Virus record (IMG/VR): IMGVR_UViG_3300036859_000226
Span: 1-57,741 of that record
Origin: a virus
Length of the DNA stretch: 57,741 bases
Strand: one strand, 5' to 3'
The translations under genes and the position numbers were made by a program. Positions within the stretch are counted from its first letter, which is position 1; each line of letters starts with the position of its first letter. Below are positions 1,322 to 54,539 of the stretch, in pieces. Under the pieces are notes generated by a model. It made no database searches and was not told the DNA's origin. It was given only the letters and a program-made list of their open reading frames with translations.

Positions 1322-2331
1322 GACGGTTTGACCTGTCCCCACATGCCGGCGCGGCGTTCGGCGCGGAGTTGCGGCAAGCGTTGGGCCGCATATTCCTCCG
1401 TTGACAACTCATCGAGCGCCCGCGGGGTTGCCCCGTTATTACCGCCAACCGGGGCCATCGGCCGCGGCAGTCGCGACGGCTGCGGGCGCTCCGGCAATGC
1501 GAGGCGAGCCGATATCTTCCCGATCTCGACCGCCTGCTGAAGCGGGTTGAGCGCGGCAATGCGCGTCGCTTCAGCAGGGTTCTTGCCGAGATGGTAGAGC
1601 ACCTGCGGCCCGTTGTCGGCGATTAGGAGCGGCCCGATCATCGTCTCCGTCACCGGCAACGTCTCCGCCTCGGCGATCAACTCGAAATCGGCGTAGGCCG
1701 GGTCTTCCAGCAGCTTCGCCCGCTTCTCGGCATAGCCGTTGCGCAGGCTTTCAAAGTGCTGTTGCTCAGCCTGCCGCTGCCGTGCGGTTTCCTCAGTGTC
1801 GCGTTGCTCCTTCTGCCGCCGATCCAGTTCTTCGGCCGTGCGCTGGGCCGCCGCGGTCGCGGCCTTGCTCGTCGCCCACGACACTAGCGCCTCGTCATAA
1901 GCGTCAGGATCGGCAAACTGATCCCGCTGCGGCTTTGGCACGACCGGCTCGGTCGGGGCGGCCGGTTGCTGTTGGGCGGCCGTCAACTTCTCGACCAACT
2001 GCGTCAGCTTATCGACGCGGGCATCCGCTGCGGCGCGAGCCTCTTCGGCCGCCCGACGTGCCGCCGTCAATTCGGATAGGCGCTGCCCGAACCGTGATTG
2101 CTGCGGCTGCGACGCTGCCGGCGCACCCGCCTCGCCAATCTCGCCCTCACCACCCTCGGTGGCGGTTGTTCCGGTTTCTGCTTCTTGCCCGTTGGCTTGC
2201 GGCGGGGCGGCATTGTCTGTTCCCGGATGAGGCGGCGGTGGGGCAGGCGGCGGGGGTGTATCCGATGTCGCCGACGTAGCGGGCCCCGGCGGTGGCGCCG
2301 AGAGAATGTCGATGTTCGTTCCGTCAGCCAT
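1318..2331 (-). CDS. Scaffolding / head-assembly protein
   Basis: The 337-residue protein has a Pro/Ala-rich acidic N-terminus (1-75), a charged Ala/Glu/Arg/Gln-rich region (about 85-220) that should form long helices and coiled coil, and a basic C-terminal tail rich in Arg. This composition, and its place between portal and coat, is typical of P22-like scaffolds, whose sequence is poorly conserved. The ATG at 2331 lies inside the end of the portal gene (8-bp overlap), so it is probably translationally coupled. Function rests mainly on position and composition. Confidence 0.72.
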   Translation of the reverse strand: MADGTNIDILSAPPPGPATSATSDTPPPPAPPPPHPGTDNAAPPQANGQEAETGTTATEGGEGEIGEAGAPAASQPQQSRFGQRLSELTAARRAAEEARAAADARVDKLTQLVEKLTAAQQQPAAPTEPVVPKPQRDQFADPDAYDEALVSWATSKAATAAAQRTAEELDRRQKEQRDTEETARQRQAEQQHFESLRNGYAEKRAKLLEDPAYADFELIAEAETLPVTETMIGPLLIADNGPQVLYHLGKNPAEATRIAALNPLQQAVEIGKISARLALPERPQPSRLPRPMAPVGGNNGATPRALDELSTEEYAAQRLPQLRAERRAGMWGQVKPS

Positions 2332-8633: not shown

Positions 8634-8837
8634 TCATCTAGCCAGTTTCGCGGCGAGCATCGCTCGCCAGATCGCGGCGAGGTATTGAGCCTCGCTGGTC
8701 TGCCGCGCCACGCCGGGGCGCACGATCGCCGCCTGCTCTGCCGCGCGGCTGCCGGCCTCGATCATCGCTGGCGTTACGGCCGACAGTTCCTCTACCAGCA
8801 CGGTAAGGGCGTGTTGGTTGGTTGCTGGGTCGCTCAT
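8634..8837 (-). CDS. Small hypothetical protein
   Basis: The 67-residue, mostly helical, Ala-rich protein starts MSDPATNQHALTVLVEEL. The ATG at 8837 overlaps the stop of the preceding gene as ATGA, so translation is coupled. No family recognised. Confidence 0.6.
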   Translation of the reverse strand: MSDPATNQHALTVLVEELSAVTPAMIEAGSRAAEQAAIVRPGVARQTSEAQYLAAIWRAMLAAKLAR

Positions 8838-9718
8838 ACGCCGCAACCCCCCTCGCAGTCGGCGAAGGCGTCAAAGCCAGTGTCGTCGGGATCAAGATAG
8901 AGGCCGGGCAGTGTGGGTTCGCGTCTGATGCGATCAGCGATTTGTGCATAACTCTCGCGGTCAGGTGACCGGAACTGGCCGTTCGTATAGCCGCGAGCCT
9001 TCGCCAGCCGCTCTTGTTCGCTCCACCACAGCATTTTGTCGGGGTGGTCAATCGTCATGCGCACGAGCGAGCCTTGCCGTTTCAGGAAACAACCGTCGCA
9101 GTTTCCTTCCCAATCACCCGCCAAGCCAAGATCGAACGGTTGCGCGGCCCAGAACGGTTTGACGTGCCCTAGCTTTGTCATTCTCGCCTTGGCGAGCGGG
9201 CACGATCCGAAATGGCCGTCGCGGCGCGAGGCGTTACGAAGGGCTATCCGGTGTACCCGGTGAAGCTCGTCATACCGAAGGCCGAGATACCGTCGGTGCC
9301 ATCCCCAACCAAGCTCATCGCGCACCCAACGTTGCACGGTGCGCATTTTCAATTCCTCGGTGCAGAAGCGCATCTTTGGTCCAGGTAGCATGTAGCCGCG
9401 CGCTTCGAGGAGTTGGACGAATGGTTCCCCGTTACGGCTGGCGCTGTTGTGACTCACTGCCTCTGCCCATTGCCTGCCAGTCTCCGGATCGCGCCGATAC
9501 TCAAGCCATTGGATATGGACGCTCCAATGCACGGACATATCCCGCACGAAATCCAGCGTTGCCGGCATTTCGCGTCCGGTGTTGCAGAAGAACGCAAACA
9601 CATCTGGAGGCAACCTGCCGTCGTGGCGCTCAAGGATGTGATGCAGCATCATCCCCGACGTTCGGCCGCCGCTGACATTGATCGCTGACGGGCCTTGGAG
9701 GCGGAACGGGTCAGGCAT
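8834..9718 (-). CDS. PAPS reductase-like / PP-loop enzyme
   Basis: The 294-residue protein has an N-terminal PP-loop INVSGGRTSGMML (the SGGxxS nucleotide loop of ATP-pyrophosphatase and PAPS-reductase families), the block FFCNTGREMPATLDFV that commonly follows it, and Cys-rich patches CTEELKMR, NCDGCFLKR and CEGGC at the end. Such stand-alone phage enzymes are widespread and their substrate is not known; relatives handle sulfate activation, tRNA or DNA sulfur chemistry. It sits between a secreted nuclease and a small protein. The fold call is good; the reaction cannot be named. Confidence 0.75.
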   Translation of the reverse strand: MPDPFRLQGPSAINVSGGRTSGMMLHHILERHDGRLPPDVFAFFCNTGREMPATLDFVRDMSVHWSVHIQWLEYRRDPETGRQWAEAVSHNSASRNGEPFVQLLEARGYMLPGPKMRFCTEELKMRTVQRWVRDELGWGWHRRYLGLRYDELHRVHRIALRNASRRDGHFGSCPLAKARMTKLGHVKPFWAAQPFDLGLAGDWEGNCDGCFLKRQGSLVRMTIDHPDKMLWWSEQERLAKARGYTNGQFRSPDRESYAQIADRIRREPTLPGLYLDPDDTGFDAFADCEGGCGV

Positions 9719-32220: not shown

Positions 32221-32535
32221 TCACAACAGCCCGACGAGAAGCGGGATCAGCGCCGGTAGGAGCTGCGGGATGAGCACCTTCATCTCGCCCCAGATCATCG
32301 CACGCCAGCTCTCGTCGACGCCGGCGACCGGCACGCCATTGACGCAGGCCGACTTCGCGTCGGCCCAGAGCACGCCGAGCGTCGAGTGCGGGTTTTGCGC
32401 GTCGAGCGTCGCGACCACGGCCGGCGGGAGCGCCGCCATGTCGGTGCACGCGGTCTTGAACGCGCCGGTGAGCTGAGCGCAGCCGCCGAGGGCGAGGGCG
32501 GCGGCGAGCGGAAGGGCGACGTAAGTGCGGGTCAT
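32221..32535 (-). CDS. Putative lipoprotein of the lysis region
   Basis: The 104-residue protein starts MTRTYVALPLAAALALGGCA with a lipobox LGGC, so Cys19 would be lipidated. Two further cysteines follow and the C-terminus is hydrophobic (LIPQLLPALIPLLVGLL). Outer-membrane lipoproteins of this size near holin genes can be outer spanins, but o-spanins are usually shorter and Pro-rich, so the role stays open. Confidence 0.6.
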   Translation of the reverse strand: MTRTYVALPLAAALALGGCAQLTGAFKTACTDMAALPPAVVATLDAQNPHSTLGVLWADAKSACVNGVPVAGVDESWRAMIWGEMKVLIPQLLPALIPLLVGLL

Positions 32536-33384: not shown

Positions 33385-33460
33385 TGCAGGTGGAAGGGAC
33401 AGCGACCTAATCAGGTTCATACCCTGATTGCTACGGGTGCAATTCCCGTACCTGCCTCCA
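33385..33460 (+). tRNA. Degenerate initiator-type tRNA-Met (CAU) with encoded CCA
   Basis: Exactly 76 nt fold as a cloverleaf: acceptor TGCAGGT/ACCTGCC with positions 2-7 paired and a mismatch at 1-72, D stem AGG/CCT, anticodon stem TCAGG/CCTGA with loop TTCATAC (anticodon CAT, U33, A37), T stem ACGGG/CCCGT and a 3' T-CCA. The 1-72 mismatch and A11-T24 pair are features of bacterial initiator tRNA. G8, G14, C19 and the T-loop TGCAATT are non-standard, so it may be a decayed or specialised RNA. It lies on the strand opposite to the lysis genes. Confidence 0.6.
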
Positions 33461-33697: not shown

Positions 33698-34366
33698 TCA
33701 TCCCCGCCTCGCCTGCCACGCCTTGAGCGCCGCATCGGTGCGCTCGCCTGGTATGCCATCGATCGGCCCCGGATTATATCCTGCTGCCTTGAGCACGGTC
33801 TGCAATGCCCGCACGGTCGCCGACATAGCGAGATAGGTCGCCTGCACCGTATCGTTCAGGTCTTGGGTCGGCGGCGGAGTCTGGACAGGCGATACGCGCG
33901 GTCCGGCGAGCGCCAGCTTGGCATAATCGAGGCGCGGGGCAAATCCGGCATCCGGATCGGATGGCCGCTCGAATAGGCGCTGGAATACGTCAACAGCCTT
34001 CGAGACAGTCAATGTCTTGCGGAGAGCAGCGAGCGCCCGCGCCTCGGTGGTTTGGAGTTCATGAATTAGAAAACCGTAATTCGCCTCGTCGGTGCCGACA
34101 TCAAGCCCCTCGTTTGCCGCCCATGTCTCGAATGCGGCGCGCCGGCTCCCGGTCCACTGCGCGATTCCAAAGCCACCGCGGCTGCCCGGCACGAGCGGAT
34201 GGTGCTCGTTGATGTCCGGGTCCAGTCCACTCTCGCCCCCAAGATTGCCGACGATGCCGGCCGCCTGGTTCTCGGTCAGCGCGAGGTCGGCCATCAGCCG
34301 GTCGATCAGCCACCGCCCGCGTGCGGGGAAGCCGGCGGACAGCGGCGGCATGTCGAATGCGGTCAT
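33698..34366 (-). CDS. Endolysin: tail-lysozyme domain plus peptidoglycan-binding domain
   Basis: The 222-residue protein has an N-terminal phage_tail_lysozyme-like domain (LALTENQAAGIVGNLGGESG with the catalytic Glu, then GGFGIAQWTGSRRAAFETWA) and a C-terminal peptidoglycan-binding repeat (VRALQTVLKAAGYNPGPIDG ... RTDAALKAWQ). It has no signal peptide, so it needs a holin, present at 32911-33321. It cuts the cell wall at the end of infection. Confidence 0.88.
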   Translation of the reverse strand: MTAFDMPPLSAGFPARGRWLIDRLMADLALTENQAAGIVGNLGGESGLDPDINEHHPLVPGSRGGFGIAQWTGSRRAAFETWAANEGLDVGTDEANYGFLIHELQTTEARALAALRKTLTVSKAVDVFQRLFERPSDPDAGFAPRLDYAKLALAGPRVSPVQTPPPTQDLNDTVQATYLAMSATVRALQTVLKAAGYNPGPIDGIPGERTDAALKAWQARRG

Positions 34367-36864: not shown

Positions 36865-37229
36865 GGCTTCTCAGCCCCGCCCGACGGCGCATAGAGCGGC
36901 TTGGCATACCCCTCCCAATCCCGAACCCGCTGCTCCATCGCCGCTTTCTCCATCGCCGCCTTCCTCGCGTCCTCCCGCGCCAGGGTGATCGCCGCCGTCG
37001 CATCGTTCAACTCGCCTAGCATCTGCCCCATGCGCTGCGTGTCGAGCGCAATCCGGCAGCGCACTTGGTCGAGATCGACGCCCCCAGCTGGCGGCTGCCC
37101 GCTCCGAACGCAAGGCGATGGGGATGGTTGCTGTGCATTGGCTCCAGCCATCATGGTTGCGAAGCCAATAAGCATAATCACCACCACCACCAGCGCGCCG
37201 GGCGGCGGCATATCGTCGTCTCGTCTCAT
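36861..37229 (-). CDS. Exported or membrane-anchored helical protein
   Basis: The 122-residue protein from ATG 37229 starts MRRDDDMPPPGALVVVVIML, with a hydrophobic segment ending near MAGANAQQ that could be a cleaved signal. A Cys pair (SPCVRSG, VRCRIAL) and a long helix (MLGELNDATAAITLAREDAR) follow. Inner-membrane anchor plus periplasmic coil would suit an i-spanin, but this is only by layout. Confidence 0.5.
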   Translation of the reverse strand: MRRDDDMPPPGALVVVVIMLIGFATMMAGANAQQPSPSPCVRSGQPPAGGVDLDQVRCRIALDTQRMGQMLGELNDATAAITLAREDARKAAMEKAAMEQRVRDWEGYAKPLYAPSGGAEKP

Positions 37230-38152
37230 GTCGCCTCCACCACTACCGCCGCCCGGCGCGCTGTCGGCTTCCGCGCCAGCGCCGGCCTCTCGACCAGATA
37301 CCACGACAGCGCCGCGAGCGCGACAGTCACGGTCAGAGAGAGCGCGAACAGCCCAGCGATCGGCACGCCCGGCATCAGCGAGGCGAACACCCGCTCGACC
37401 GGGTAGCCGTAGATGTAGATGCCGTAGGAGAAGTCGCCGAGGCGGCCAGCGTCCCGCAGGCCAGGCCACGATAGCAGCCCGATCCAGAGCGCCAGCGGGG
37501 CCATCAGAGTGAAGCCAAGGTAATCGTGCAGCGGCAGGAGCGCGAGACCCGCCAGCGCCATCCACGGCGCTCCGCGCACGACCCAGGGCCACGCTGCGGC
37601 CGCGGCACCGATCGCGAAGAACAGGCCGAGGCGTCCGGTCTGCGCCAGCGTGAAGTTGTCGGGCGGGATCAGCACCAGCAGGACCGCCCCCGCAATCCAA
37701 ATGAGGGGCATCCGTCGCGTTACCACAGCGCCGACCACAAACAGCCCGTAGCACAGCGCCTCGATCGGGATCGTCCACAAGGAGCCGTTGCCCCAGGCCA
37801 CCGGCACCCGCGTCAGCGCGTTGTCCGCGAGGTACGGCTCGACCCCTGGCACATTGCCCGAGATGATCGCGAGTTCTGCCGTAAGAAACAGGCATGGCCC
37901 CAGCGCCGGCAGTAGCCGCAGCGCCCGCCTCGCAAGAAACCGCCCGACATCGGGATCGCTCGACCAACTGCGCGAGACCAGATAGCCGCTGATCGTGAAG
38001 AACAGCATCACGCCGAGCTCGCCAAGCTGCCGGCCGGCGACGAGGAACGGTTGCGGGAGGGCCGCCAAGCCGTACAGGTGCGTGACGAAAACGGCAAGCG
38101 CCCCGATGAGGCGCAGCGCGTCGAAATTGTTTGAACGATTAGTCATATCCAT
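37226..38152 (-). CDS. Acyltransferase 3 family membrane enzyme
   Basis: The 308-residue protein starts MDMTNRSNNFDALRLIGALA and shows the acyltransferase-3 pattern: N-terminal FDALR, then VTHLYGLA with the conserved His, VMLFFTISGYLVSRSW, LARRALRLLPALG, GSLWTIPIEALCYGLF and about ten membrane segments ending SWYLVERPAL. Family members such as OafA O-acetylate surface polysaccharide. In a phage it could alter the host O-antigen to block further adsorption. The gene overlaps the fibre-like gene upstream by 14 bp. Confidence 0.88.
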   Translation of the reverse strand: MDMTNRSNNFDALRLIGALAVFVTHLYGLAALPQPFLVAGRQLGELGVMLFFTISGYLVSRSWSSDPDVGRFLARRALRLLPALGPCLFLTAELAIISGNVPGVEPYLADNALTRVPVAWGNGSLWTIPIEALCYGLFVVGAVVTRRMPLIWIAGAVLLVLIPPDNFTLAQTGRLGLFFAIGAAAAAWPWVVRGAPWMALAGLALLPLHDYLGFTLMAPLALWIGLLSWPGLRDAGRLGDFSYGIYIYGYPVERVFASLMPGVPIAGLFALSLTVTVALAALSWYLVERPALARKPTARRAAVVVEAT

Positions 38153-39515
38153 AAAGCATCGCCTTCCCTGACGCCAAATTCCCACTCGATGAAGTGATGA
38201 ACAAATCGGTGATCGCATTGGTGTCCGCGGTATAGGTGCAAGAGCCAAGATGCCGGAAGACGCTCGTCCCGTTGTAGAAGGTCTGGACGTAGGAGGCCGA
38301 CTTAGCCTGCGTCGTCGATTGCAGGTTCTTCATCGTATATTCGCCGTTGACGCCACCGTGCGAAGTCGTGTTCGTCACGGCGTTGAAGTTGGCACAGAAG
38401 CTGTTCGCCTCGCTGTTGGTGTTAGTTGTCGTGGTGGTGGCGCTGGAGGTCGAGAGGAACGTCGTGTGGTAGCCGCTGGTCTTCGAGACCCCCGCCTCCC
38501 CGAAGGTGAAGGTGATGCTGACGCTGTTCGTCGCGGGCAGGATCGCGTCGAGGACCAGAACGTAGTTGTTGTAGGTTGGCAAGGATGAGAATTGGAGCGT
38601 CGTCGCGGTGTTGTTCGCGGTCAGGGTGGAAATGAGGCACCACCCCTTGTTGGTGATTCCCGTCGCGCACGGAAGCCCCGTCGCGTTCGTCAGCACGCCA
38701 GCCGACGGCGTGCCGAGATCGCCGCCCTGAAAATACGCGGCGCCGGTGCCGCTCTCGTCGGTCAGCGCGCCGCGCAGGTTGGTGCTCGACGGCGTGCCGA
38801 GAAATGTCGCGACGCCGGCGCCAAGGCCGCTGATACCGGTATCGACCGGCAGCCCCGTCGCGCTCGTAAGCGTCGCGGCACTCGGCGTCCCCAGGTTCGG
38901 GGTCGTCAGCACCATGTTCGCCGCCGCGAGACCGCTCGGCAGCGTCGTGCTAATTGACGGGACACCAGTCCCGCCCGTCACCAGCACGCCACTATTGCCG
39001 GTTGCTAGATTGCCGAGCACGCCCGCGTTGTCGTACAGGAGGCCCTTGTCGGTGCCGCTGGTGATTGCAGTCGTGCCGACCGTAAGATTGGTCGCCGATC
39101 CACCCCCACCCCCACCCTTTGCAAGCGGCGATCCGACGCCGGCCGCCATCGAGAGTGTTGTGCTGCCGCTCGCAGTAATGCCGGCAAGATGCGTCGCGCC
39201 ATTGAGTGCGATCATGGCATCGCCGCCAGCCGCGACAAGAACTCCGCCGGTCGTTGCGACAACCGCGCTGTCACCGGCCACCACATAGGCGTCAACCAAA
39301 CCGCCGTTGTGGAGCCAAAGGTTTGTCGGTGGCGGCGTCGGTCTGACGGCGGTCCACCCCAATGCCACCCGGGAGGACGAATTGCTCGCCGACAGGCTGA
39401 CGGTGGCTCCGACCTGCGCCCACGGTGCCTGATAAACCACGCCAGACTGAGCGAGCGCCGCTGCCGACGCCAGCAGCAACACAACGCCAGCCGCTATTCC
39501 TCTCCATCCCTTCAT
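38139..39515 (-). CDS. Fibre-like protein with signal peptide (1)
   Basis: The 458-residue protein from ATG 39515 begins with a clear Sec signal (MKGWRGIAAGVVLLLASAAA, cleavage near ALA-QS). The middle carries the tail-fibre repeat pattern NLGTPSAATLTSATGLPVDT and DLGTPSAGVLTNATGLPCAT, Ser/Thr/Gly-rich and beta-structured. The C-terminal domain is a sandwich-like fold with several Cys. Fibre repeats in an exported protein are unusual. Confidence 0.65.
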   Translation of the reverse strand: MKGWRGIAAGVVLLLASAAALAQSGVVYQAPWAQVGATVSLSASNSSSRVALGWTAVRPTPPPTNLWLHNGGLVDAYVVAGDSAVVATTGGVLVAAGGDAMIALNGATHLAGITASGSTTLSMAAGVGSPLAKGGGGGGSATNLTVGTTAITSGTDKGLLYDNAGVLGNLATGNSGVLVTGGTGVPSISTTLPSGLAAANMVLTTPNLGTPSAATLTSATGLPVDTGISGLGAGVATFLGTPSSTNLRGALTDESGTGAAYFQGGDLGTPSAGVLTNATGLPCATGITNKGWCLISTLTANNTATTLQFSSLPTYNNYVLVLDAILPATNSVSITFTFGEAGVSKTSGYHTTFLSTSSATTTTTNTNSEANSFCANFNAVTNTTSHGGVNGEYTMKNLQSTTQAKSASYVQTFYNGTSVFRHLGSCTYTADTNAITDLFITSSSGNLASGKAMLYGYD

Positions 39516-39528
39516 CGCGTCCTCCCGG

Positions 39529-41244
39529 TTAATAAAGGCTCGCCGCCGGCCCAACATTGGCCGTGAACGTTGTTGGCGGCGTGATCGTGGTAAACCCGGT
39601 GGCGAAGGTCTGCCCGGTTTGTGCCGCCGTCCCGCACGCCCCCATCTTCAAAGCGTTCGCCCGCTGCGTCGCGTTGTCGTAAAACGTTTCGACATAGTAT
39701 GTCGCTGGCCCTTTGGCCGCATAGGGCGCCGTGAACGGCACGAGTTGGTACGTCTGCGCTCCGCTCGCCGCCGTACTCGCCGAGGTCGCGACATTGACGC
39801 CGCTGGAATTGGCGAGGCCCACCTTCATGTTGCCGCTCACGACCGATCCGTTGAAGACGGCCACCCCTGTCACCGTCATATTTGCCGGCACAAAAACCTC
39901 GGCGATATAGACTTCGGTTGCCACAGGCGTCTGATCCGTCAGAGCGCCAGCGGCATCCCGCCCCGACCCGCCGCAGGTCACAACATTGCGGGGCGATGTG
40001 GCAAAGCCACCGGCCGCGCCAATCCCCCCCGTCGGGGTCAACCCCGACACGCCGAGCGTCCCCACAACCGCCCCGCCGTCTGTCCAGAAATACTGACCGC
40101 CGTCGACCGCGCAATTCCAGCCGGTGTAAGAGCCTCCCGCCGGGTTCCCGTTGGCTAATCCGTAGTCGATGATCGTGCCGGATGTCCCGCTGCACGCCCC
40201 GCCGGCTGCAGACTTGGGCATGGTAATCGCCGCTGTCGTCACAAGCGCATTGTTCATCGCAATGCCGTAACCCATGCCCACCGCGCTCGTCATCGAAATG
40301 CCACCCGTCGTCAACTTCGTGCTGATGTTGTTGAGGACGAGATTCCAGGCGACATGGCTGCCGTCGGTATCGGCATACTGTGCATTCAGAACGGCTTGGA
40401 CCGGAGCCATCGAAACGGACTGCCCCGTGCCGCCATCAGCGGCAGCCGGATTGCGCGCCACAAACTCGTTGTCGGCGATGCCTGTGCCGAACTGAACGGC
40501 GCTGCCGAGAAATGCCGCCACCCCGGCGTTGACGGCCGAACTGGTCGCGGCTCGTGCACGGCTGTCTACACCGATGATGTTCTTGTAGCTGGTCTGCCAC
40601 GAGCCTGGGCTTGGCCCATAGGCGGCAAACACCCCGGCAATGTTCGCGTGCGCCAGCGTGTAGACTGTCGTGTCGCTGTCGTCATTTTCGATGTAGAGCG
40701 TGTCTCGGAAGCTGCCGGCTGTGTCGGAGATCGCGCCGGAGAGCGAGAGTTTGCCCCTGATCCCGGTCAATTGGGAATAGGTCGGAAAATAGTCTGGGTT
40801 GAGGGCCGAAAGGGCCGCTGTCGCGGGTGCGAGATCGGTATTCCCCGTGACGGTGAGGTTGCCGGAGATAGCGAGGCTCGAAAACAGGCTGGACGGGATA
40901 TTGTCCACCGTCCAAATCGGCGCCGTAGGGGGGTCGCTATCCGTGGACGGCGAGAGGGTAAACTTGTATGTGCCGACTGCCAGCCAGATATTGGCTTCCC
41001 CGCGAGAATCGAGGATTATCGGGTTGATGTTCGGTGTGCCGGCCGTCGAATCGGTGTAGGTCGCCGTCTTCGTCGTCGTCCCGGCCGTATAGGTGAACAC
41101 CTTGCACCCGCTGCATGGGGCACCGTTGTTGTCGTCAAAATGCGCCTTCGGCCACGGCGACAGCGCGGCATTCTGCGCCCCAGATGGAGACGGCAGCGCC
41201 AAGAGGCCGGCAAGAAACGCGCACCGCAGCAGAGATCCAATCAT
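39529..41244 (-). CDS. Tail-fibre/spike-like protein with signal peptide (2)
   Basis: The 571-residue protein from ATG 41244 has a signal-like start (MIGSLLRCAFLAGLLALPSP, then SGAQ) followed by PKAHFDDNNGAPCSGCKVFT and NPIILDSRGEANIWLAVGTY, the N-terminal domain shared by many phage tail fibres and spikes. The remainder is Gly/Ser/Thr-rich with Cys pairs. It is the best-recognised fibre of the four and should be part of the virion, so its signal peptide needs explanation. Confidence 0.75.
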   Translation of the reverse strand: MIGSLLRCAFLAGLLALPSPSGAQNAALSPWPKAHFDDNNGAPCSGCKVFTYTAGTTTKTATYTDSTAGTPNINPIILDSRGEANIWLAVGTYKFTLSPSTDSDPPTAPIWTVDNIPSSLFSSLAISGNLTVTGNTDLAPATAALSALNPDYFPTYSQLTGIRGKLSLSGAISDTAGSFRDTLYIENDDSDTTVYTLAHANIAGVFAAYGPSPGSWQTSYKNIIGVDSRARAATSSAVNAGVAAFLGSAVQFGTGIADNEFVARNPAAADGGTGQSVSMAPVQAVLNAQYADTDGSHVAWNLVLNNISTKLTTGGISMTSAVGMGYGIAMNNALVTTAAITMPKSAAGGACSGTSGTIIDYGLANGNPAGGSYTGWNCAVDGGQYFWTDGGAVVGTLGVSGLTPTGGIGAAGGFATSPRNVVTCGGSGRDAAGALTDQTPVATEVYIAEVFVPANMTVTGVAVFNGSVVSGNMKVGLANSSGVNVATSASTAASGAQTYQLVPFTAPYAAKGPATYYVETFYDNATQRANALKMGACGTAAQTGQTFATGFTTITPPTTFTANVGPAASLY

Positions 41245-41266
41245 TAGCAATCCCCTCCGTCAGCCA

Positions 41267-42280
41267 TCACGGCGTCCCATACCTCGTCTGCTGATTCGCC
41301 CGCACCGCGGCCCGCAGGCCCGCGGTGTTCATGTTGACCGAACAGCCGCCCTCGTTGAATTGCGTGTTGAGGGTCTGCCCGGCCCGTCCAAAGATCCTCA
41401 CCTTCGCGACCGTCGTGTTGATGCTCTTCGTCCCGCCGTTCTCGGTCCCGTCGATGTTGAGCGTCGCGGTCGGGCCGCTATCATCCATCGAGCCGTTCGC
41501 GGCATGGATTGCCCCGTCGCTCGCCCCCGTCGTTCCCTGCCCGTCGATCGTCCAGTTCGCCGACGAGCCCGACGAACTGATCGCGTTGTTGATGTCGCTC
41601 GACGCCGACCAGCCGCCGCACTGCACGAAGCGAAAGACCCCGTTCACCGCCTTCCCCCCCACATCCGAGATCGCCAGCGGGCTAGCCGGCGTGTAGTTGT
41701 TGGCGCTCCGGTATTCCTGCGTCGCGATCGTCGGCGACACCGCGCAGGGGATCGACGGGGTGTAGCAGAGGCCGTCCGACCCCCAGGCGAACCGGACTTC
41801 TCCCGCGTTCGTCGTCGCGACCGCCACCGCGTCGCCGTAGCTGCTGCCGGTCATATCATAGAACGTGTTGATCTTGATGAACTCGGTGCCGAGCGGGCTG
41901 CGGTTCTGGCCCCAGACATCGACCGTCGTGCTGCCGGGACACCCCGCGGTGTGCGTCAGATCAGGCGTTCCATCGGTGTAGACCTTGACCGTGCAGGAAT
42001 CTTGATACGTGCCGCCGCTGTTAAACCGATCCAGCAGCAGCATGTTGTTCGTGCCCGGCTGCGCATAGGCGTAGCTGTACGAAAACGAGGCGCTGTACCA
42101 GGGCGCGAAGGTGGTGATGTCGCCGACGCCGCAGAAGTGCGTCGCGCAGCTTCCGAGGCTCGATGGCGGCGGCGGCCACAGCGGCGAGAAGGCGAGCGAA
42201 TTCGTCGCGAGCATCGCGACGCCGGAGGCAAAGAGCAGCGCGGCGCCGGCCAGCGCCCCCGCAAGCCGCAACATCGTCAC
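41267..42280 (-). CDS. Fibre- or carbohydrate-binding-like protein with signal peptide (3)
   Basis: GTG 42280 (GTGA with the upstream stop) or ATG 42274 begins a hydrophobic leader (LRLAGALAGAALLFASGVAM). The mature part has paired Cys (SCATHFCG, SCTVKVYTD, GLCYTPSIPC) and the segment SCTVKVYTDGTPDLTHTAGC followed by FYDMTGSSYGD, somewhat like the lectin fold of fungal arabinofuranosidase-B-type proteins. It would be an exported disulfide-bonded protein, about 337 residues. Function open. Confidence 0.55.
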   Translation of the reverse strand: MTMLRLAGALAGAALLFASGVAMLATNSLAFSPLWPPPPSSLGSCATHFCGVGDITTFAPWYSASFSYSYAYAQPGTNNMLLLDRFNSGGTYQDSCTVKVYTDGTPDLTHTAGCPGSTTVDVWGQNRSPLGTEFIKINTFYDMTGSSYGDAVAVATTNAGEVRFAWGSDGLCYTPSIPCAVSPTIATQEYRSANNYTPASPLAISDVGGKAVNGVFRFVQCGGWSASSDINNAISSSGSSANWTIDGQGTTGASDGAIHAANGSMDDSGPTATLNIDGTENGGTKSINTTVAKVRIFGRAGQTLNTQFNEGGCSVNMNTAGLRAAVRANQQTRYGTP

Positions 42281-43716
42281 TGGTACGCCTTCACGGCGCA
42301 GTCCGAGACGCCGTTGATCCGGGTGAAGTAGAACTTGAACTTGCTCGTGTTCACCGTCGTCAGCGCCGACCCATCGCACGCACCGCCGACCAGCGTGAAG
42401 CCAGAGAGCGTCACCGCCCCGGCGCTCGCCCCGTTTGTCATCAGGTAGGCGCAAGAGCCGTCAGCGCTGTCCGCCGCCAGCGTGAACGCACCATTATTCG
42501 TGAAGTATTGCAGATCGCGCGTGCCGCAGGCGACGGTCAGCGTGCCGCTCGATATCGTCCCGAGGTTGTTCGATGTGACGACAAAGCCGCCGGTCACGAC
42601 CTGATTCGCGATATCGAGCGCCGCGATCGCCATGTTCGAGTTCGGCACCGTCCAAGTTCTCGCGGCGGTCGGCCCCGTCACCGTGATCGTCTGCGGGATG
42701 ATCGGCACCTTCGTCGAGGCCGCCGGGAAGGTCCAGACGCTCGCGCCGAGCGCCCCGGTGTCGGCGACGATCTCGCCGAGCCCCGAGGTCGCGTTGCCGA
42801 GAAAGATGCCGCCCGCGACGCCGGATGATCCGATTGTCAGCGCCGCGCCAGCCGCTGTGATGCTTGTATCCGTCGTGCAGCCGTTCGACCCATTGTTGAG
42901 AACGATGCCCGCCGCGCCGGAGACGATGCAGCTTCCTGTCGGCGTCACCGCGCTCAGCACCGCGCCTGTCTCGGTGATCGTGGTGCCGTCTACCTTGTAG
43001 ACGCCGAACACGGTTGTCGAACCGTGCGGGAGTGCCTGAAACGAATGGGTCGATGCCTCAAGGAAGGTGTTGAGAACCCCGCCGCTTGCCGGAACCGCGC
43101 CCGAGAGCGCGTCGGTAAATGGATTGATGAGGGTCGTCAGTTGCGTCTTCGTCAGCGCGGCCGGCACAGCAGCCACGCCCCCGACGTTGCCGAGCGCGGT
43201 CAGACTGGGGATCGGTGCCATGCCGGCCGTGCCAACGGCGACAACCGGGTTCGGCGTTGATGTCAGGCCGTCGTTGAACGTAATACTCGTAACCGATCCC
43301 GACCCCTCCACTTTCCCGGTCGGGAGCGCGTACCAGTTCATATCTTGCTGGATGTTGACAACAGCACCCTGTGCCGCCGCCAATGTAAGCGATGATTGCA
43401 GGTTGACTAAGCGAAACAGCCCCGTTCCAGGGTCACGCAGATTGACGAACGTGACCGTCGCCCCATTGATCGGGAGAACGGTGAACTCGAAGTTCGGAGC
43501 AAAAACCAGCCCCGGCGCCGGCAGTGAGATCGTCACCGGGTCCGTCGCCGTCAGCAAAATCCAGCCGCAGCGGTCGGTCGTGTTGACGGTATATGCCGTA
43601 GCAGAAACGAGTTTCGGGGCGATCGTTTGCGCGCACGGCTGCGTCTGCGCTTGAGCCGCGCCAGCAAACGCAAGCAACAGCCCGAGGCAGAGAACGCTAA
43701 GCCATGTCTTGCGCAT
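42277..43716 (-). CDS. Fibre-like protein with signal peptide (4)
   Basis: The 479-residue protein begins MRKTWLSVLCLGLLLAFAGA with cleavage near AQA-QT, a textbook Sec signal. The body is beta-rich with Gly/Thr/Val repeats (SVTSITFNDGLTSTPNPVVA; AALDIANQVVTGGFVVTS), as in fibre shafts, and ends in a Cys-containing domain. It begins within the last codons of the ATP-grasp gene (20-bp overlap). Confidence 0.6.
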   Translation of the reverse strand: MRKTWLSVLCLGLLLAFAGAAQAQTQPCAQTIAPKLVSATAYTVNTTDRCGWILLTATDPVTISLPAPGLVFAPNFEFTVLPINGATVTFVNLRDPGTGLFRLVNLQSSLTLAAAQGAVVNIQQDMNWYALPTGKVEGSGSVTSITFNDGLTSTPNPVVAVGTAGMAPIPSLTALGNVGGVAAVPAALTKTQLTTLINPFTDALSGAVPASGGVLNTFLEASTHSFQALPHGSTTVFGVYKVDGTTITETGAVLSAVTPTGSCIVSGAAGIVLNNGSNGCTTDTSITAAGAALTIGSSGVAGGIFLGNATSGLGEIVADTGALGASVWTFPAASTKVPIIPQTITVTGPTAARTWTVPNSNMAIAALDIANQVVTGGFVVTSNNLGTISSGTLTVACGTRDLQYFTNNGAFTLAADSADGSCAYLMTNGASAGAVTLSGFTLVGGACDGSALTTVNTSKFKFYFTRINGVSDCAVKAYQ

Positions 43717-45016
43717 AACCCATCCTGTGCAATGCCGGCAGCGCCTCGATCACCTTACAGCCGATGTCGTCGCGCACGATCTTGTCAGGAATGCGAACTG
43801 CGTCGACCGCGCGATAGACTCGCTCGCGCGCCCGCTCGACCGTCTTTCCCAACCCGGTGCAGACCAGCACATATTCCCCGGTCGTTTGATATTGTGGGCC
43901 GTTGACGATCTTCTCGCCCTCCATGTGCGGGCCGGCGCCCATCATCACCGAGGCAAGGTGGACCTGATCGCGCACTTCGTCGACGCCGAATATCGGGTTG
44001 CCCTCGACCAGCTCTGGCGGGCTGGCATTGTACGGATAGCGCGGCTGGCCGCAAACAACGCCGATCGCAACGTCGTAGCTGACGCGCAGGCTGTCCTTGC
44101 CGTCGAGAAGATCACGCATCCACTTCGCCGGGTCGCCCCGGTGCGAGGCCATCTGAATCCACCACGCCGGGTAGCCGAGGCGCGCGGTCCACTCGAAGAA
44201 CCACGGCTTGCCCTTCGTGTCGATCGCGCCCCCAAAGGCAAAATCGCCCCGGTGCCCGAGCGTCCGCAACACCGGCTCCATCGGCTTCATCACTTCATCG
44301 GCCAACTTGTCATCCTCGACGTACTGGCAGACCGTGCCTGCTTCGCCGGTTTGGGGCCCCTTCTCCCCCGGCATCAGCTTCTTGTGCTCAAAGCAGACCT
44401 GCCATTTGTCTGGCAGGAACCCCTCGGGGCCGCACCATCCAGACACACCGATCTCGGCCAGCAGGTCGATCTTCTCCTGCAACAGACACTTCTTGACCTT
44501 CTTCCCGGCAGCGATCTGCCGTCGCAACCACCCGCACAGGTCAGCCGGATCGTCGGCGACATAGGTCATGGCCTTGTTTTCCTCATCCCCGCCCGGCTTG
44601 AACACGAACGCCCGGTCTGACTTGCGAGCGAACGCCTCCGCATCTTCCAGGCCAGCAAACTCGTGATACTCTGGCACGTTGATGCCAGCAGCTCGGGCCG
44701 CCTCGATCCCGGCCATGCGGTCGATTTCCAGCCGCGCGCTCTGCGGCGTCGGGGCGAAGACCGGATATCCGAACTCGCGATACCGTTGCATCTCGTGCAG
44801 GAGCGTGTAGTTGCCAGTCAGCACGATCAGCCCCTCGCGCGCCCACGCCATTGATGCGCGCCAGTCGTCGACCAGCGCAATCTGCTTGAACCCCTCACCG
44901 TAGCGCTCGCGCTTCTTCGGCATGTGCCGGTAAAGGCGCACGGAATGCCCTGCCGCAGCGCAACGCAGCGCGAAGTCGAGCCCCATCAGCTCGATATCCG
45001 CGACGAGTACATTCAC
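43697..45016 (-). CDS. ATP-grasp enzyme, PurD-like
   Basis: The 439-residue protein starts MNVLVADIELMGLDFALRCA, an N-domain of glycinamide ribonucleotide synthetase type, followed by FAPTPQSARLEIDRMAGIEA, FVFKPGGDEENKAM (the ATP lysine region), QEKIDLLAEIGVSGWC and GDFAFGGAIDTKGKPWFFEW with ATARLG-like end typical of ATP-grasp ligases. Phage versions in structural operons have no proven substrate; they may modify a protein, surface sugar or nucleotide. Coupled by ATGA to the upstream gene. Strong family call, unknown reaction. Confidence 0.75.
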   Translation of the reverse strand: MNVLVADIELMGLDFALRCAAAGHSVRLYRHMPKKRERYGEGFKQIALVDDWRASMAWAREGLIVLTGNYTLLHEMQRYREFGYPVFAPTPQSARLEIDRMAGIEAARAAGINVPEYHEFAGLEDAEAFARKSDRAFVFKPGGDEENKAMTYVADDPADLCGWLRRQIAAGKKVKKCLLQEKIDLLAEIGVSGWCGPEGFLPDKWQVCFEHKKLMPGEKGPQTGEAGTVCQYVEDDKLADEVMKPMEPVLRTLGHRGDFAFGGAIDTKGKPWFFEWTARLGYPAWWIQMASHRGDPAKWMRDLLDGKDSLRVSYDVAIGVVCGQPRYPYNASPPELVEGNPIFGVDEVRDQVHLASVMMGAGPHMEGEKIVNGPQYQTTGEYVLVCTGLGKTVERARERVYRAVDAVRIPDKIVRDDIGCKVIEALPALHRMGYAQDMA

Positions 45017-45588
45017 GCGCTGACCACCCCCAACTGCGCGCTGATCCAGGTATTTGCGGCTACCGCATAGAAGATCGCGCGCTTGGCGTTGGTGAGCGGA
45101 ACGCCCGTGCTCCCTGCCACGCCGTCGATGGTGTCCGAGCCGGCGCCGTAGACCTGCATCGCGTTTGCGCCAGCGTTGAAAACGACCACGGCAGCGCCGA
45201 CGCCAGCAGCGGATACCGCCGGGAGGACAACCCCCGTTCCCGCCCCCGCAGCCGTCACGTTGTTGATGTTCTTCGTCAGGGCAAGGGCATCGGCGCGTGT
45301 CGTGCCGACCGCTGTCAGAGCGTTGCCGACCGATTCATCGACGTATCCACCAGCCACTACGTTGCCGCCGGCGCTGATCGCGCCACCCGCGCTGAGCGTC
45401 GTCCCGAACGTGCCGCCGCTGGTGACAGCGAGTGAATTAACCCCCAACGCTGTGCCGCCGCTCACCGGCCGCACCCCGCTATCTTCGATGCCGCCATTGC
45501 CTGTGAAGACAACGACGTTGCCGGATGACGCTTCGCCGTATTGGATTATCCCCGGCCGCTGCGGGCGGGGGTCAGGCGGGATCGGCAT
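45013..45588 (-). CDS. Fibre-associated structural protein
   Basis: The 191-residue protein MPIPPDPRPQRPGIIQYGEA... is Gly/Ala/Ser/Val-rich with trimeric beta-shaft style sequence (VDESVGNALTAVGTTRADAL; VVVFNAGANAMQVYGAGSDT). The last motif (V.FNAGAN...V....) is common at the end of phage fibre proteins. Probably a virion shaft or tip component. Confidence 0.55.
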   Translation of the reverse strand: MPIPPDPRPQRPGIIQYGEASSGNVVVFTGNGGIEDSGVRPVSGGTALGVNSLAVTSGGTFGTTLSAGGAISAGGNVVAGGYVDESVGNALTAVGTTRADALALTKNINNVTAAGAGTGVVLPAVSAAGVGAAVVVFNAGANAMQVYGAGSDTIDGVAGSTGVPLTNAKRAIFYAVAANTWISAQLGVVSA

Positions 45589-45982: not shown

Positions 45983-46246
45983 GTGGGATACTCTTTCCTG
46001 TTCGTCGCACTGGCCGTTGGCATTGCTGGGCCTATATTCTGGTGGGAGAAGCGCACAGGGCCGGGATGGGAACGCCAAGCGTTTGCAAAGCAGCAACGCG
46101 GCGAGCCGCTGACTGGGGCCGAATCATTATGGCTGGCCCGCATTGCCGACAACAGTCCCCGCCGGTCCAGCGACCGCCGCTCCTTGTCGGAATGGCTGTG
46201 CCATCATATTGCGCACCGCAGGGAACGCCGTCGCCCAACCGCGTAG
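45983..46246 (+). CDS. Possible small membrane protein on the opposite strand
   Basis: A plus-strand frame from GTG 45983 encodes 87 residues: a membrane helix MGYSFLFVALAVGIAGPIFW, then WEKRTGPGWERQAFAKQQRG and LTGAESLWLARIADNS, which look coding. It covers the only sizeable gap in this stretch and then overlaps the antisense gene by 120 bp. It would be one of few plus-strand genes among virion genes. Low confidence. Confidence 0.3.
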   Translation: MGYSFLFVALAVGIAGPIFWWEKRTGPGWERQAFAKQQRGEPLTGAESLWLARIADNSPRRSSDRRSLSEWLCHHIAHRRERRRPTA

Positions 46247-48547
46247 GGCATTCATTCCAATTCCCGTGTATGGTGCCGTCGCGGCAAGCCCTCCCATCAA
46301 CATGCCGGGGCTGAAATACGCCGCCCCCCCTCCCGCCAGCAAGGCCATCGCCCGTTCGGTCAGCAACCGTTCCGGTGTCCCGCTATCAGGCACCGTGCGA
46401 GGCAACGTCGCCTCTGCCGCGTCCGACAAATCCTGCATCAACGCTTCGCCCTTGGCAAAATCGAGTTTGCGCAGCGACGGGTCGCTCTGCCGCACCGCCA
46501 TGCGCAATTGTGCCGGGCTAAACACCCCCTCTTTCGCTCCCGACGACGATGCAGCACGTCCGACCCGGACGAAATTGGCGTAGGCTTCATTCGCTGCCCT
46601 AAGATCCCCGGCATATTGCGGATTTTGCCGCATCAGCGTGGCTCGGAAGGCGGCGTGGAGATCATCAATGATGTGCCCGAGTTTCCGGTTGTCATGCATT
46701 GGATCGCTTTTGTAGCCCCGCGCCTCGGCGCCGAGCATGCTGTCGATCCCCTTGAGTTGATCCCCGCGAGCCGGCGCCGACACCTTGTCGAGCAGTTGCG
46801 ACCGCACGATTTCTGCAAATCGGCGTCGCTGCTCGGTTGGCAACTCGCTACGAGCACGCTGCGCCACCTGAACAAGATCGGTGACAAACTGCCTGTCCGC
46901 CTGTCCGACAAGGTTAGGCACGACGCGATTGTAGGCTGCGTCGATGACGTCATCCACGTACTGCGCTGCGTCGCGCCCAGGCAAGACACTGCGCGGCAAT
47001 GATTCCCCAAGCGGGGCCAGGACACGGTTCCAAGCCGCCCGATTGAAGTCCTCAATCGCCCGCCTCTGGCCGGCGCGCACCGCTTGCCCCACAATCGGGA
47101 CGCTCGAAAACGCATCCTCCATGCGCCTCGCCGCACCCCCCGCCATCTGTCCCGGGGTGAGCCTGATGCCCTCTTTGAGCATCGCATTGACTTGCGGCCG
47201 GAATGTCGGGGCGATGGCCTGGCCGATGCCATACCCGCCCGCTCCGAGCCCGCCACCGATAGCAGCACCAATGCCAGCCTCTTTTGCCTTCTCCCACCAA
47301 AATTGCTGGCCCGGCTTCTCCTCGATCGGCGTCAGCGCAGCCCCGGCAGCGCTTCCCACAGCCCCCGCCAGCGCGGCGCGCGCAAGGGTCGTGGGAGCCC
47401 CGCCGACAGCAGCAAGCGGCAGGGCCGCCACCATGCGCCCCGCGATGCGAGGAACATCGGTCCCGGTGTCGCCCGCAGATGCACGTTCCTGCGCTATATC
47501 GGCTTCCCGCTGTCGCTGCCGCTCAATGATCGGCTTACCCACAACCTCGGGCAAGACGTGAGCGAGCATTTGAAGCGGCCCCTCGACCGCTATATCACGC
47601 ACCCCGCTATAGAAATCCCCGCTCTGCTGAAGAGACCTTGGCGATTGTCCTTTCTGCAATGCCGGCAAATCGCCAAAAATGCCGAGAGCGCCGCTAACTA
47701 GCGAGGGCGCGCTCCCCGCCTTCGGTACCGGCGTAAAGTTGAACGGTCGCTCGTTGCCGTGCGTATCGGCGATCCAAGCCGGCGGCGTTTCACGTAAAAC
47801 GCCTTTGATGAAGACCGGGATCAACCCGTCAGTCCCCAACTCCTCCTCGGCGATGCGCGCCCTGTTCGACCCGTCGTGCCCGACGATCTTGACCTGGCCA
47901 CCCTTCTTTGCCGTCTCAAGCTCCGGCAGATCGGCAATCGCATCCCCACCCATCAGGCTCTTGAGCAATGAGCGGCGCTTCGTCGAACTCGGCGTTTCCT
48001 CGATCGCGGCGCGGTATTCGCCCGGCGTCATCCACCACACCGAACCGTCAGAGCGCGCCTGTGCGGCGGCTATCGCGGACGGCTCGACCCGCCATTTGCC
48101 GCCCTCGACGGCCGGGTCTTTGCCGTAGCCGCCGCCGATAGCACGCGCCAGCGCGGGATTGTACGGCGCCCACGGATTGTAGCCTTCTTCGTCGTACATC
48201 TTCTGAGCGACGGTCTGTTGCGCCTCGCGAGGGGCCGACATCGCAGTGGGGTATTTTTCGACATCGATGCCGAGTTTAGGACCATAATTCCGCCAGTTGG
48301 TATCGGTGATCTGCCAATAGCCGCTCGCCGTGTGCGTTTTGTCGTAGCGGTAATTCGGCAAGTTTTTGCCACCCGACTCGTATCGTTCGATTACAGAGAG
48401 CGGCGGCGGCAGTGGCGTGACCGGCGCGACGTAAGGGACATCACGCCCCAACTGCGGATCGTATATCGTCTGCGCCGGCTTCGGCGATTGCCTCTGCCAC
48501 GCGTCAGGTGCCGCGAGTGGTTCTGTGGGATCGTCGCCGTAGGGCAT
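46127..48547 (-). CDS. Large ejection/internal virion protein with transglycosylase domain
   Basis: The 806-residue protein has an N-terminal lysozyme-like transglycosylase region (PLSVIERYESGGKNLPNYRY, then ASGYWQITDTNWRNYGPKLG; catalytic Glu in ERYESGG). Next is a segment VKIVGHDGSNRARIAEEELG of the type found in large polyvalent phage proteins, then Gly/Ala-rich membrane-like patches (GIGAAIGGGLGAGGYGIGQA) and a long helical C-terminus. It likely enters the cell during DNA ejection and cuts peptidoglycan. Confidence 0.75.
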   Translation of the reverse strand: MPYGDDPTEPLAAPDAWQRQSPKPAQTIYDPQLGRDVPYVAPVTPLPPPLSVIERYESGGKNLPNYRYDKTHTASGYWQITDTNWRNYGPKLGIDVEKYPTAMSAPREAQQTVAQKMYDEEGYNPWAPYNPALARAIGGGYGKDPAVEGGKWRVEPSAIAAAQARSDGSVWWMTPGEYRAAIEETPSSTKRRSLLKSLMGGDAIADLPELETAKKGGQVKIVGHDGSNRARIAEEELGTDGLIPVFIKGVLRETPPAWIADTHGNERPFNFTPVPKAGSAPSLVSGALGIFGDLPALQKGQSPRSLQQSGDFYSGVRDIAVEGPLQMLAHVLPEVVGKPIIERQRQREADIAQERASAGDTGTDVPRIAGRMVAALPLAAVGGAPTTLARAALAGAVGSAAGAALTPIEEKPGQQFWWEKAKEAGIGAAIGGGLGAGGYGIGQAIAPTFRPQVNAMLKEGIRLTPGQMAGGAARRMEDAFSSVPIVGQAVRAGQRRAIEDFNRAAWNRVLAPLGESLPRSVLPGRDAAQYVDDVIDAAYNRVVPNLVGQADRQFVTDLVQVAQRARSELPTEQRRRFAEIVRSQLLDKVSAPARGDQLKGIDSMLGAEARGYKSDPMHDNRKLGHIIDDLHAAFRATLMRQNPQYAGDLRAANEAYANFVRVGRAASSSGAKEGVFSPAQLRMAVRQSDPSLRKLDFAKGEALMQDLSDAAEATLPRTVPDSGTPERLLTERAMALLAGGGAAYFSPGMLMGGLAATAPYTGIGMNALRGWATAFPAVRNMMAQPFRQGAAVAGPAGTVVGNAGQP

Positions 48548-51917: not shown

Positions 51918-52258
51918 GCCGGCATCCCCAAGCTCAATGCACGCATCACGATCTGATCCGCCGACACGCCGTCCGGCGGGACCTGAACAACAACCCCAGA
52001 AAGCGTCGGATCGCCCGGCTGATCGGCAACGCCCTGTTGGCCGATGATCGCGCTAAGCAAGTCAACCGGGATCGGCGGCACATCGGGCGGCACAAACGGA
52101 AAGATTGTCGAGACATCGATCTGCCCTTGCTGTGCCAGCGCAACCTGAAACACCTGGTTGAACCACAGCCACCATTCGCGAGCGCATCGCCCGGTCTGCG
52201 GATCGGCGATCGGCACGTTGGGGATCGGCGGGATGATGGGCTCTTGTGAGGTAATCAT
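51914..52258 (-). CDS. Structural protein following the gp10-like gene
   Basis: The 114-residue protein starts [20 protein letters not shown] and has REWWLWFNQVFQVALAQQGQ. This short protein, with its WWxW motif, commonly lies next to tail-accessory genes in P22-like phages of alphaproteobacteria. Function unknown. Confidence 0.6.
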   Translation of the reverse strand: MITSQEPIIPPIPNVPIADPQTGRCAREWWLWFNQVFQVALAQQGQIDVSTIFPFVPPDVPPIPVDLLSAIIGQQGVADQPGDPTLSGVVVQVPPDGVSADQIVMRALSLGMPA

Positions 52259-53949
52259 GCCGCGTCAAGCTCCGCGTCGATGATCGCCACCGGGAACGGG
52301 TCCGCAGACGACACCTCGAATATCCGGTCCAGCCCAGTATTGCGCCGCGTTGCCCCCAACCGCCGGAACATGACGCGGCGCGCCGTCTCGCCCGTCTGCC
52401 CCACGGCGGCCAAGTGCTCGTTCGACCACACATGGCCGCCATCGTCCGACCACCGGAGCATGATCTGAGGATTGGTCCCGTCCGGCACGCCGATGCCGGT
52501 CTGCACGTCGAGCCGCAGCGCGTTGAAGCGCACCGGTTCCTCGCTTGGCTTCTGCAACGCCCGCCACGATCGCAGCCACTTTCGTTGCGTCCCGTTATCG
52601 GTAAGCGTGTCGAGGTCCAACCCATAGAGGTTGCCGTTGCGGTAATCTCCGACCACCGCCTTGCCGGCGAACGTCGCGTGGTATTGTCCCCAGTGCCGAT
52701 GGAAAAGGCCGCTCGCGAGGGCCGCGCGCTGGTGCCAAACCGGCTCCCCCAGTTGCGCCGACGCTGCCACGTCGTAAACCCAAGTCGCATCTCCCGTCGG
52801 GAAATTAAGCACATAAAAGACGTGCCCGCCCTGCTGGTAGCAGTAGCCGTTGGCATCGGTCACGCTGCTGTACCGGCCGATCGCGGTTTCGAGCGCATGC
52901 GTCGAGATGCGCCGCGCGTCATGGCCGCGCGTCTGCACCACGATCCGTTCGCCCGACGAGTTGCGGCCGAGCCAATAAAGGCTCTCGCCGCTCTGCGCCA
53001 ACGACTCCACGGCCTCGATGCCGATTTCGATGTAGGGGCCGGGCAGCAGCGCAAAGGCGAAGTTGGGCGTCCCCGCGTTGTACCATATTTCGGAGTGCAA
53101 CTCCTTGATGACCCAGATTTCCCGAATGATCTGCGCGACACTCACCACGTTGTCGGGATCGCCCGACGACTCTCCAAATTGCAACGCCGGCCAGGACGAG
53201 AGGTCTAGCAGGTCGGATTGGAAGATAAACCCGGTTCCGGGCTGGTTGATGATGCCGAACCCGTCCTGATAGGCCGCCCGGATCGGCGTCGGCCCCGTTG
53301 CGAACGGCAAGACAATCGGAAACAGTTGCGATGCGCCATAGGTCGGCGCGGTGAGCACAAGCCCAGATCCGGCCCCTGTCGTCGCCGCCTGCGAAAAACT
53401 CGCCGGGTTGGCCGTGAACGAGCCGCCAGAAACCACCGCAAACGCCGTGACCCCGCCCGCACCGTCCACCGCCGTCACGCGCACGGAGGCTGTCGCGACC
53501 TGCACGCCACCCGTTTGAACGAGCGTAATCACGTCGTTGACGGCGTTTCCCGTACCGGCAGTGCCGATCGTCGCCCCGGTCAGCGGCCTCCCCGGCGGCG
53601 CGATGAACCCGACCGAGCCGCTGAACACAGCGAGTTGCGTGCCGTTGTTGATCATGCTGACCGCGCCCGCCGACGCCACAGTGCCGAGAACCACAGAGGC
53701 AAAGGTCGCGTCGACCGCATAGAGCGTGTTCCCCGACACGACGTAGAGTTTCCCCGCCATGACGTGCATGCCGCGGATCGGCCCCGCTCCGAGCGTCGCC
53801 AGCAAATCGAGCCCTGGGCAGCCGTAGAGCGCGCCGACCGCTTTCCCGTCCTTCGTCTCGACGATCTCGGGATAAAGGTTGACGAGCCGGTTGTCGGCAA
53901 GATTGCTCGACCGGCTGACATCGAAGGGGCCAAAAATCGGGGTTTTCAT
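52255..53949 (-). CDS. P22 gp10-like packaged-DNA stabilisation / tail hub protein
   Basis: The 564-residue protein from ATG 53949 starts [20 protein letters not shown], followed by [20 protein letters not shown] and [13 protein letters not shown], the classic N-terminus of P22-like gp10 proteins. A Gly/Ala/Val insertion at about 125-200 (VAGGG-type repeat) then interrupts a beta-propeller like body ([37 protein letters not shown]). It closes the tail channel and binds spikes. Coupled to the homing endonuclease gene (ATGA). Confidence 0.85.
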
Positions 53950-54539
53950 CGAGGCGACCACCCCAACTTGACGAGGCGTTTCGCTTCTTTATGCCCCACA
54001 AGAACCTCATGCCGTGGCGACATCAAGGTAGCCTCGAAAATCATCCAAACGCCCCGGTTATTGGCCTGCTGCGTGTCTGTTGCCCAGCGGCAATTTTCGG
54101 GAGAATACCCGCGATTGTTGTCTATCCGATCAATTGATTTGTGAAGCGGAACCTCACCCATGTCGTCGAGGAACGCCTGAAACTCTCTCCATCGATCACA
54201 AACTCTGATCCCACGATCCCTATAGAGCGGATTTGCCCGGCAGCGCCGGATCATCGCATACCAGATGGCATACGTTCGCGCTTTCTGGCCTTTCACTGTG
54301 GTAACGCCGCGAGACCTCCCATGTCTCGTCTTGGCCTTAGCAATTCTGGCCCCGCGCGTGCATCCACAAGATTTTGATACCCCCGTGCGAAGCGTTTGTG
54401 CGGCAACAGCCCTTTCGGTTCCACAAATACACCGGCAATTCCATATGGTTTGCTTACTATTCCCATTCGCGGCACGGCTAACAACTATCCAATCTCCGAA
54501 TACCTTGCCAGTCAAGTCGATCAAAGCCCATTTCGCCAT
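53946..54539 (-). CDS. Homing endonuclease-like protein (third)
   Basis: The 197-residue protein starts [20 protein letters not shown] and has [20 protein letters not shown] with a zinc ribbon, then [40 protein letters not shown] and [15 protein letters not shown]. The 'RG..VC..W..F..F..DMG..P....LDRIDN..GY...NCRW' string is a widespread phage HNH-like family. It sits between gp4-like and gp10-like genes and uses AT-richer codons, so it is a recent arrival. Confidence 0.82.

Follow-up and report, generated by a model that had tools for sequence, protein, structure and literature searches.

Four adjacent genes on the minus strand of a P22-like podovirus genome (positions 38139-43716 of the 57,741-base IMG/VR viral record referred to here as the window) encode fibre-like proteins that each begin with a Sec-type N-terminus, which confirms the observation of four consecutive signal-peptide fibre genes made in the original prediction. 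We consider it probable, at roughly 60%, that these genes, designated D, C, B and A in minus-strand order, constitute the late virion fibre and tailspike module of the phage, and that their products are Sec preproteins which dock onto the virion at or after lysis. Export of the four products is well supported by their predicted N-termini and cysteine content, while their docking to the virion is a step that we infer. The cytoplasm is the assumed site of folding and assembly for the receptor-binding proteins of tailed phages. The combination of export signals and paired cysteines in A-D and in many related viruses suggests that, contrary to this textbook picture, some tailed-phage host-recognition spikes may be made outside the cytoplasm.

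The window encodes a portal protein (2324-4573, minus strand), scaffold, terminase and DNA-ejection proteins, and the head closure protein Hc3, a P22 gp10-like tail hub protein (52255-53961, minus strand; phrog_578, 4e-96). Along the minus strand, the ejection-type proteins are followed by a small cytoplasmic fibre-like protein (45013-45588), a PurD-like ATP-grasp enzyme that overlaps the start of D (43697-45016; PF02843 and PF01071, with TIGR00877 below the cut-off), the genes D, C, B and A, and an acyltransferase adjoining the fibre run (37226-38152, minus strand; PF01757, 8e-20; phrog_3333 O-acetyltransferase, 7e-28), beyond which lies the endolysin (33698-34366). The acyltransferase that had been reported next door is thus real. 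Upstream of the fibre module, a putative ejection protein with a transglycosylase-like domain (46127-48547, minus strand) contains no cysteine and returned no relatives when searched in viral contigs. From the ejection proteins through A, each gene either overlaps the next or is separated from it by no more than about 25 bases, so that a single late operon would fit this stretch, and A-D stand at the tailspike position, immediately behind the ejection proteins. Promoter and terminator scans gave results near chance, the promoter scan being only slightly above it and detecting, inside the fibre run, no minus-strand site of sigma-70 type; neither scan was relied on. The window also carries a phosphoadenosine phosphosulfate reductase-like gene, an auxiliary metabolic gene (8834-9718, minus strand; phrog_424, 4e-43), and a tRNA-Met (CAT) gene opposite the lysis region (33385-33460, plus strand).

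The first fibre-like gene with a Sec-type signal peptide, D (42277-43716, minus strand; 479 residues), begins with MRKTWLSVLCLGLLLAFAGAAQA (43648-43716), presumably cleaved before QTQ, and its end overlaps by four bases with C (41267-42280, minus strand; 335-337 residues), whose signal peptide MLRLAGALAGAALLFASGVAMLATNSLA (42191-42274), followed by FSP, has a long hydrophobic core and a weak cleavage site. The exported tailspike candidate B (39529-41244, minus strand; 571 residues) starts with MIGSLLRCAFLAGLLALPSPSGA (41176-41244) ahead of QNA, and A (38139-39515, minus strand; 458 residues) with MKGWRGIAAGVVLLLASAAALA (39450-39515) ahead of QSG, all four cleavage points having been set by reading the sequence. 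Each of these N-termini opens with a basic n-region, continues with a hydrophobic core free of charged residues and has small residues at -3/-1; C is marginal in these respects, and its signal peptide is less certain than the other three. The starts of A, B and D are backed by ribosome-binding sites, the Shine-Dalgarno sequence being strong at A (39515, gggagg) and B (41244, ggagggg) and reading agga at D (43716); C, with a weaker Shine-Dalgarno, starts at the GTG at 42280 or the ATG at 42274, and the start codons originally named were right throughout. A rule-based caller assigned signal peptides to 5 of the 78 open reading frames in the window, namely A-D and one lipoprotein; as its false calls amount to about 2% on composition-matched random N-termini, four consecutive signal peptides lie far beyond chance, and the original claim of four Sec signals held, marginally for C. 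The only call outside the fibre genes is a small lipoprotein-like frame (32221-32535, minus strand) that begins MTRTYVALPLAAALALGGCAQ.

A virion role is indicated by B, in which the signal peptide is directly followed by a tailspike head-binding domain (40897-41175, minus strand), the only one in the genome, which resembles the Pam1 and Pan3 domains in sequence, with profile matches to Pam1 (7eeq, 1.8e-7) and 9vyg (5e-8). This domain is what had been described as the usual tail-fibre N-terminal domain, and its AF2 model (pLDDT 84) matches the head-binding domains of the Pan3, Pam1 and P22 tailspikes. The model of C, folded alone and without an alignment, was meaningless (pLDDT 31). B shares with the P22-type tailspike (gp9; Pam1/Pan3, P22) the fold of the head-binding domain (7eeq, 9vyg, 1lkt) and the gene neighbourhood of P22-like podoviruses, tail hub gp10/Hc3 included. 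It differs in that signal-less spikes begin at the head-binding domain, whereas B carries a signal peptide ahead of it, and in that its hairpin reads C-S-G-C (41104-41115, minus strand) in place of the usual L-V-G-G type and its body cysteines are paired, unlike those of signal-less spikes. No match to a fibre body turned up among PDB sequences, and searches of viral contigs with whole B and whole D returned no relatives; A, C and D show little overall similarity to anything, apart from the C-terminal 110 residues of D, which align with UOF80288, a fibre protein without a signal peptide from a P22-like phage.

Homologues of the N-terminal part of B in viral contigs nearly all lack a signal peptide and have L-V-G-G or a comparable sequence, and the single signal-bearing relative in that search (L028) reads C-S-G-C; B likewise has C-S-G-C where PBR31 and MW202483 have L-A-G-G. 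A DNA-pattern scan for C-x-G-C-K...A-G-T, which is blind to signal peptides, yielded 22 stretches, 14 of them true fibre open reading frames, and a signal peptide was present in all 14. Altogether, a signal peptide precedes the head-binding domain in B and 14 relatives, and C-x-G-C occurs in 15/15 signal-bearing head-binding domains and is absent from 57 of the 58 signal-less ones, an association (p = 1e-14) that we do not treat as decisive because relatedness among the sequences inflates it. When the motif is masked, the label for a signal peptide switches six times across the domain tree and well-supported branches force only one origin, so the statistic overstates independence and does not represent 15 independent events. 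The sole exception, a signal-less head-binding domain with C-A-G-C (L053:7998-8294), is placed, with weak support, beside signal-bearing sequences on the first tree and may be a fibre whose signal peptide was lost. Two apparent signal-bearing cases, Vibrio 1.184.A and Shewanella X14, were rejected: their alignments seemed to enter a signal peptide, but the annotated proteins are signal-less and start at the domain.

Since relatedness inflates the motif association, more weight falls on cysteine parity, measured on mostly unrelated bodies, and on a second fibre family. The cysteine-containing bodies of the original prediction were borne out, with 4, 6, 8 and 8 mature cysteines in A, B, C and D, respectively, and the A-D bodies together hold 26 cysteines in 1747 mature residues vs 5 in 3518 in seven other virion proteins (p = 8e-9). 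An even mature count was found in all 29 complete fibre-module proteins with signal peptides (24/24 after thinning of related copies), a set drawn from the signal-bearing loci and the window that includes neighbours of head-binding genes as well as the domain carriers, and for some of whose members the start or cut point of the signal peptide was assigned by rule or visually. Of 42 signal-less head-binding-domain fibres that contain any cysteine, 21 have an even and 21 an odd count. The cysteines of the C-terminal region of D are absent from the aligned, signal-less UOF80288. Because signal peptides go together with cysteine pairs, the A-D signals look functional, and the mature bodies, with paired cysteines in even numbers, fit an oxidising compartment.

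The link between signal peptide and cysteines holds in a second, unrelated fibre family, typified by BcepC6B gp19 and orf035 of Xanthomonas phage PBR31 ('tail fiber protein' and 'putative structural protein'), whose annotations carry no remark on an export signal. Like A-D, these are fibre-like late proteins with signal-peptide N-termini of Sec type and paired cysteines; they differ in body family, which has a TAGDW tip, and in that one signal-bearing gene lies beside a signal-less fibre or spike. A scan for their relatives gave about 40 signal-bearing and 33 signal-less proteins. Between gp19 and orf035, a C-terminal cysteine pair is jointly present or jointly absent. Among the relatives, the C-x16-C pair occurs in 29/38 signal-bearing vs 1/29 signal-less members (p = 5e-10), with 28 even and 7 odd counts among the signal-bearing ones. 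In 398 sampled genomes of Pseudomonadota, the phylum of L085, one prophage-like signal-bearing fibre of this second family was found (L200), and the few head-binding-domain matches gave no new signal-bearing case.

Among the 15 records with a signal-bearing head-binding domain, Hc3 is present in 13, which are all those longer than 8 kb and are P22-like podoviruses, the other two being 5-7 kb fragments. Each of the 15 has one clear head-binding domain, and it is always the one behind the signal peptide; in G006 the region of a neighbouring signal-bearing gene, immediately downstream, yields one further match, a weak one (E = 0.009). In five contigs (L087, L095, L099, L091 and L107), two to four consecutive signal-bearing genes follow cysteine-free ejection-type genes. 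With the signal-bearing head-binding domain the only clear one in these P22-like phages, and accompanied by Hc3, the most economical reading is export of the spikes themselves. The fibre and spike proteins checked in the cultured P22-like phages phiAX1, CBW1004C-Prop1 and DSL-LC05 have no signal peptide, so P22-like architecture does not need export. The tail fibre genes of CBW1004C-Prop1 adjoin a small gene annotated as 'putative exported protein' (L198:15481-15834), whose product has a signal peptide and four cysteines. The PurD-like ATP-grasp enzyme, which has no match in PHROG, is a recurrent neighbour: in at least eight contigs (L096, L064, L005, L085, L043, L011, L027 and L084) its gene lies directly or a short way upstream of the fibre gene that carries the head-binding domain, whether or not that gene has a signal peptide, and it also occurs near fibres of the second family (L116, L138, L139, L145, L157, L163, L168 and L176).

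In the proposed module, the A-D products would be translocated via Sec and lose their signal peptides; in the periplasm they would form disulfides and fold or trimerise. Once the inner membrane is opened by the holin, the exported proteins would meet cytoplasmic heads with completed tail hubs, and the spikes would dock via the head-binding domain, at or after lysis. The virion reading thus carries the burden that exported spikes must meet virions during or after lysis. Such docking is feasible, since free P22 spikes are known to bind spike-less heads in vitro. The joining of P22 heads and base-plate parts in vitro is reported by Israel et al. 1967, as cited in PMC2989905. Whether this arrangement characterises a widespread P22-like group, in which the only tailspikes are exported by Sec, oxidised in the periplasm and docked during or after lysis, with infectivity dependent on the host Sec and disulfide machinery, we regard as evenly balanced.

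The same signal peptides and cysteine pairs would also suit proteins that are exported without entering the virion, coating the infected cell, blocking receptors or acting as adhesins together with the O-acyltransferase, in superinfection exclusion or for easier release of progeny. The acyltransferase adjoins the fibre run, Ig-like, fn3 and CHB_HEX_C domains are found in signal-bearing relatives, and lambda Lom, a lysogenic-conversion protein, provides a precedent, being an exported product whose gene lies in a fibre region (PMC12309495). However, Lom is not a fibre: it is an outer-membrane beta-barrel, whereas A-D have no Pfam or PHROG match to an outer-membrane anchor or barrel family and, by inspection, no lipobox, and B retains a virion-docking domain of which it is the sole carrier in the genome. 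The place of A-D behind the ejection proteins, apparently in one operon with them, is also that of a spike gene, and in BcepC6B and PBR31 the signal-bearing gene lies in a late-gene position, between the fibre or spike gene and the holin. We therefore judge a purely non-virion role unlikely; a soluble exported spike freed at lysis could bind receptors as a side effect. Of the original interpretation, export stood, in two unrelated fibre families, while the receptor-masking or adhesion system with the acyltransferase found no specific support.

It is very unlikely that the hydrophobic N-termini are instead uncleaved peptides used in the virion or at the membrane, with disulfides forming only after lysis. 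The N-terminus of C does resemble a membrane anchor, and disulfide bonds strengthen virion proteins of the Agrobacterium phages 7-7-1 and Milano, the virion disulfide networks of 7-7-1 being described with no signal peptide mentioned in the available text of PMC12796354. In the proteins studied here, however, cysteine pairs are found mostly where there is a signal peptide and follow its presence inside the same domain families, and ordinary Sec n-, h- and c-regions with A-x-A-like ends recur in many unrelated proteins. A degenerate or recombined region, in which host secreted genes or chance hydrophobic starts were fused to fibre debris, would accommodate the scant similarity of A, C and D to other proteins but is disfavoured and scarcely credible, the frames being intact, tightly packed, provided with ribosome sites and biased in codon position, and the same arrangement recurring in many independent viral contigs.

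A search of open-access full text, with subscription papers and preprints outside its range, found no description of signal peptides on tailed-phage spikes, and the nearest literature in it concerns Lom, signal-sequence endolysins and virion disulfide networks. A Klebsiella screen in which dsbA affects several phages explains the effect via receptor folding. If the late virion module proposed here is correct, virion completion would be split between compartments, and host range could depend on the export and disulfide-forming machinery of the host. In that case, recombinant expression of such spikes without their signal would yield misfolded protein. The combination of a signal peptide, an even cysteine count and the C-x-G-C hairpin would provide a simple sequence test for such phages.
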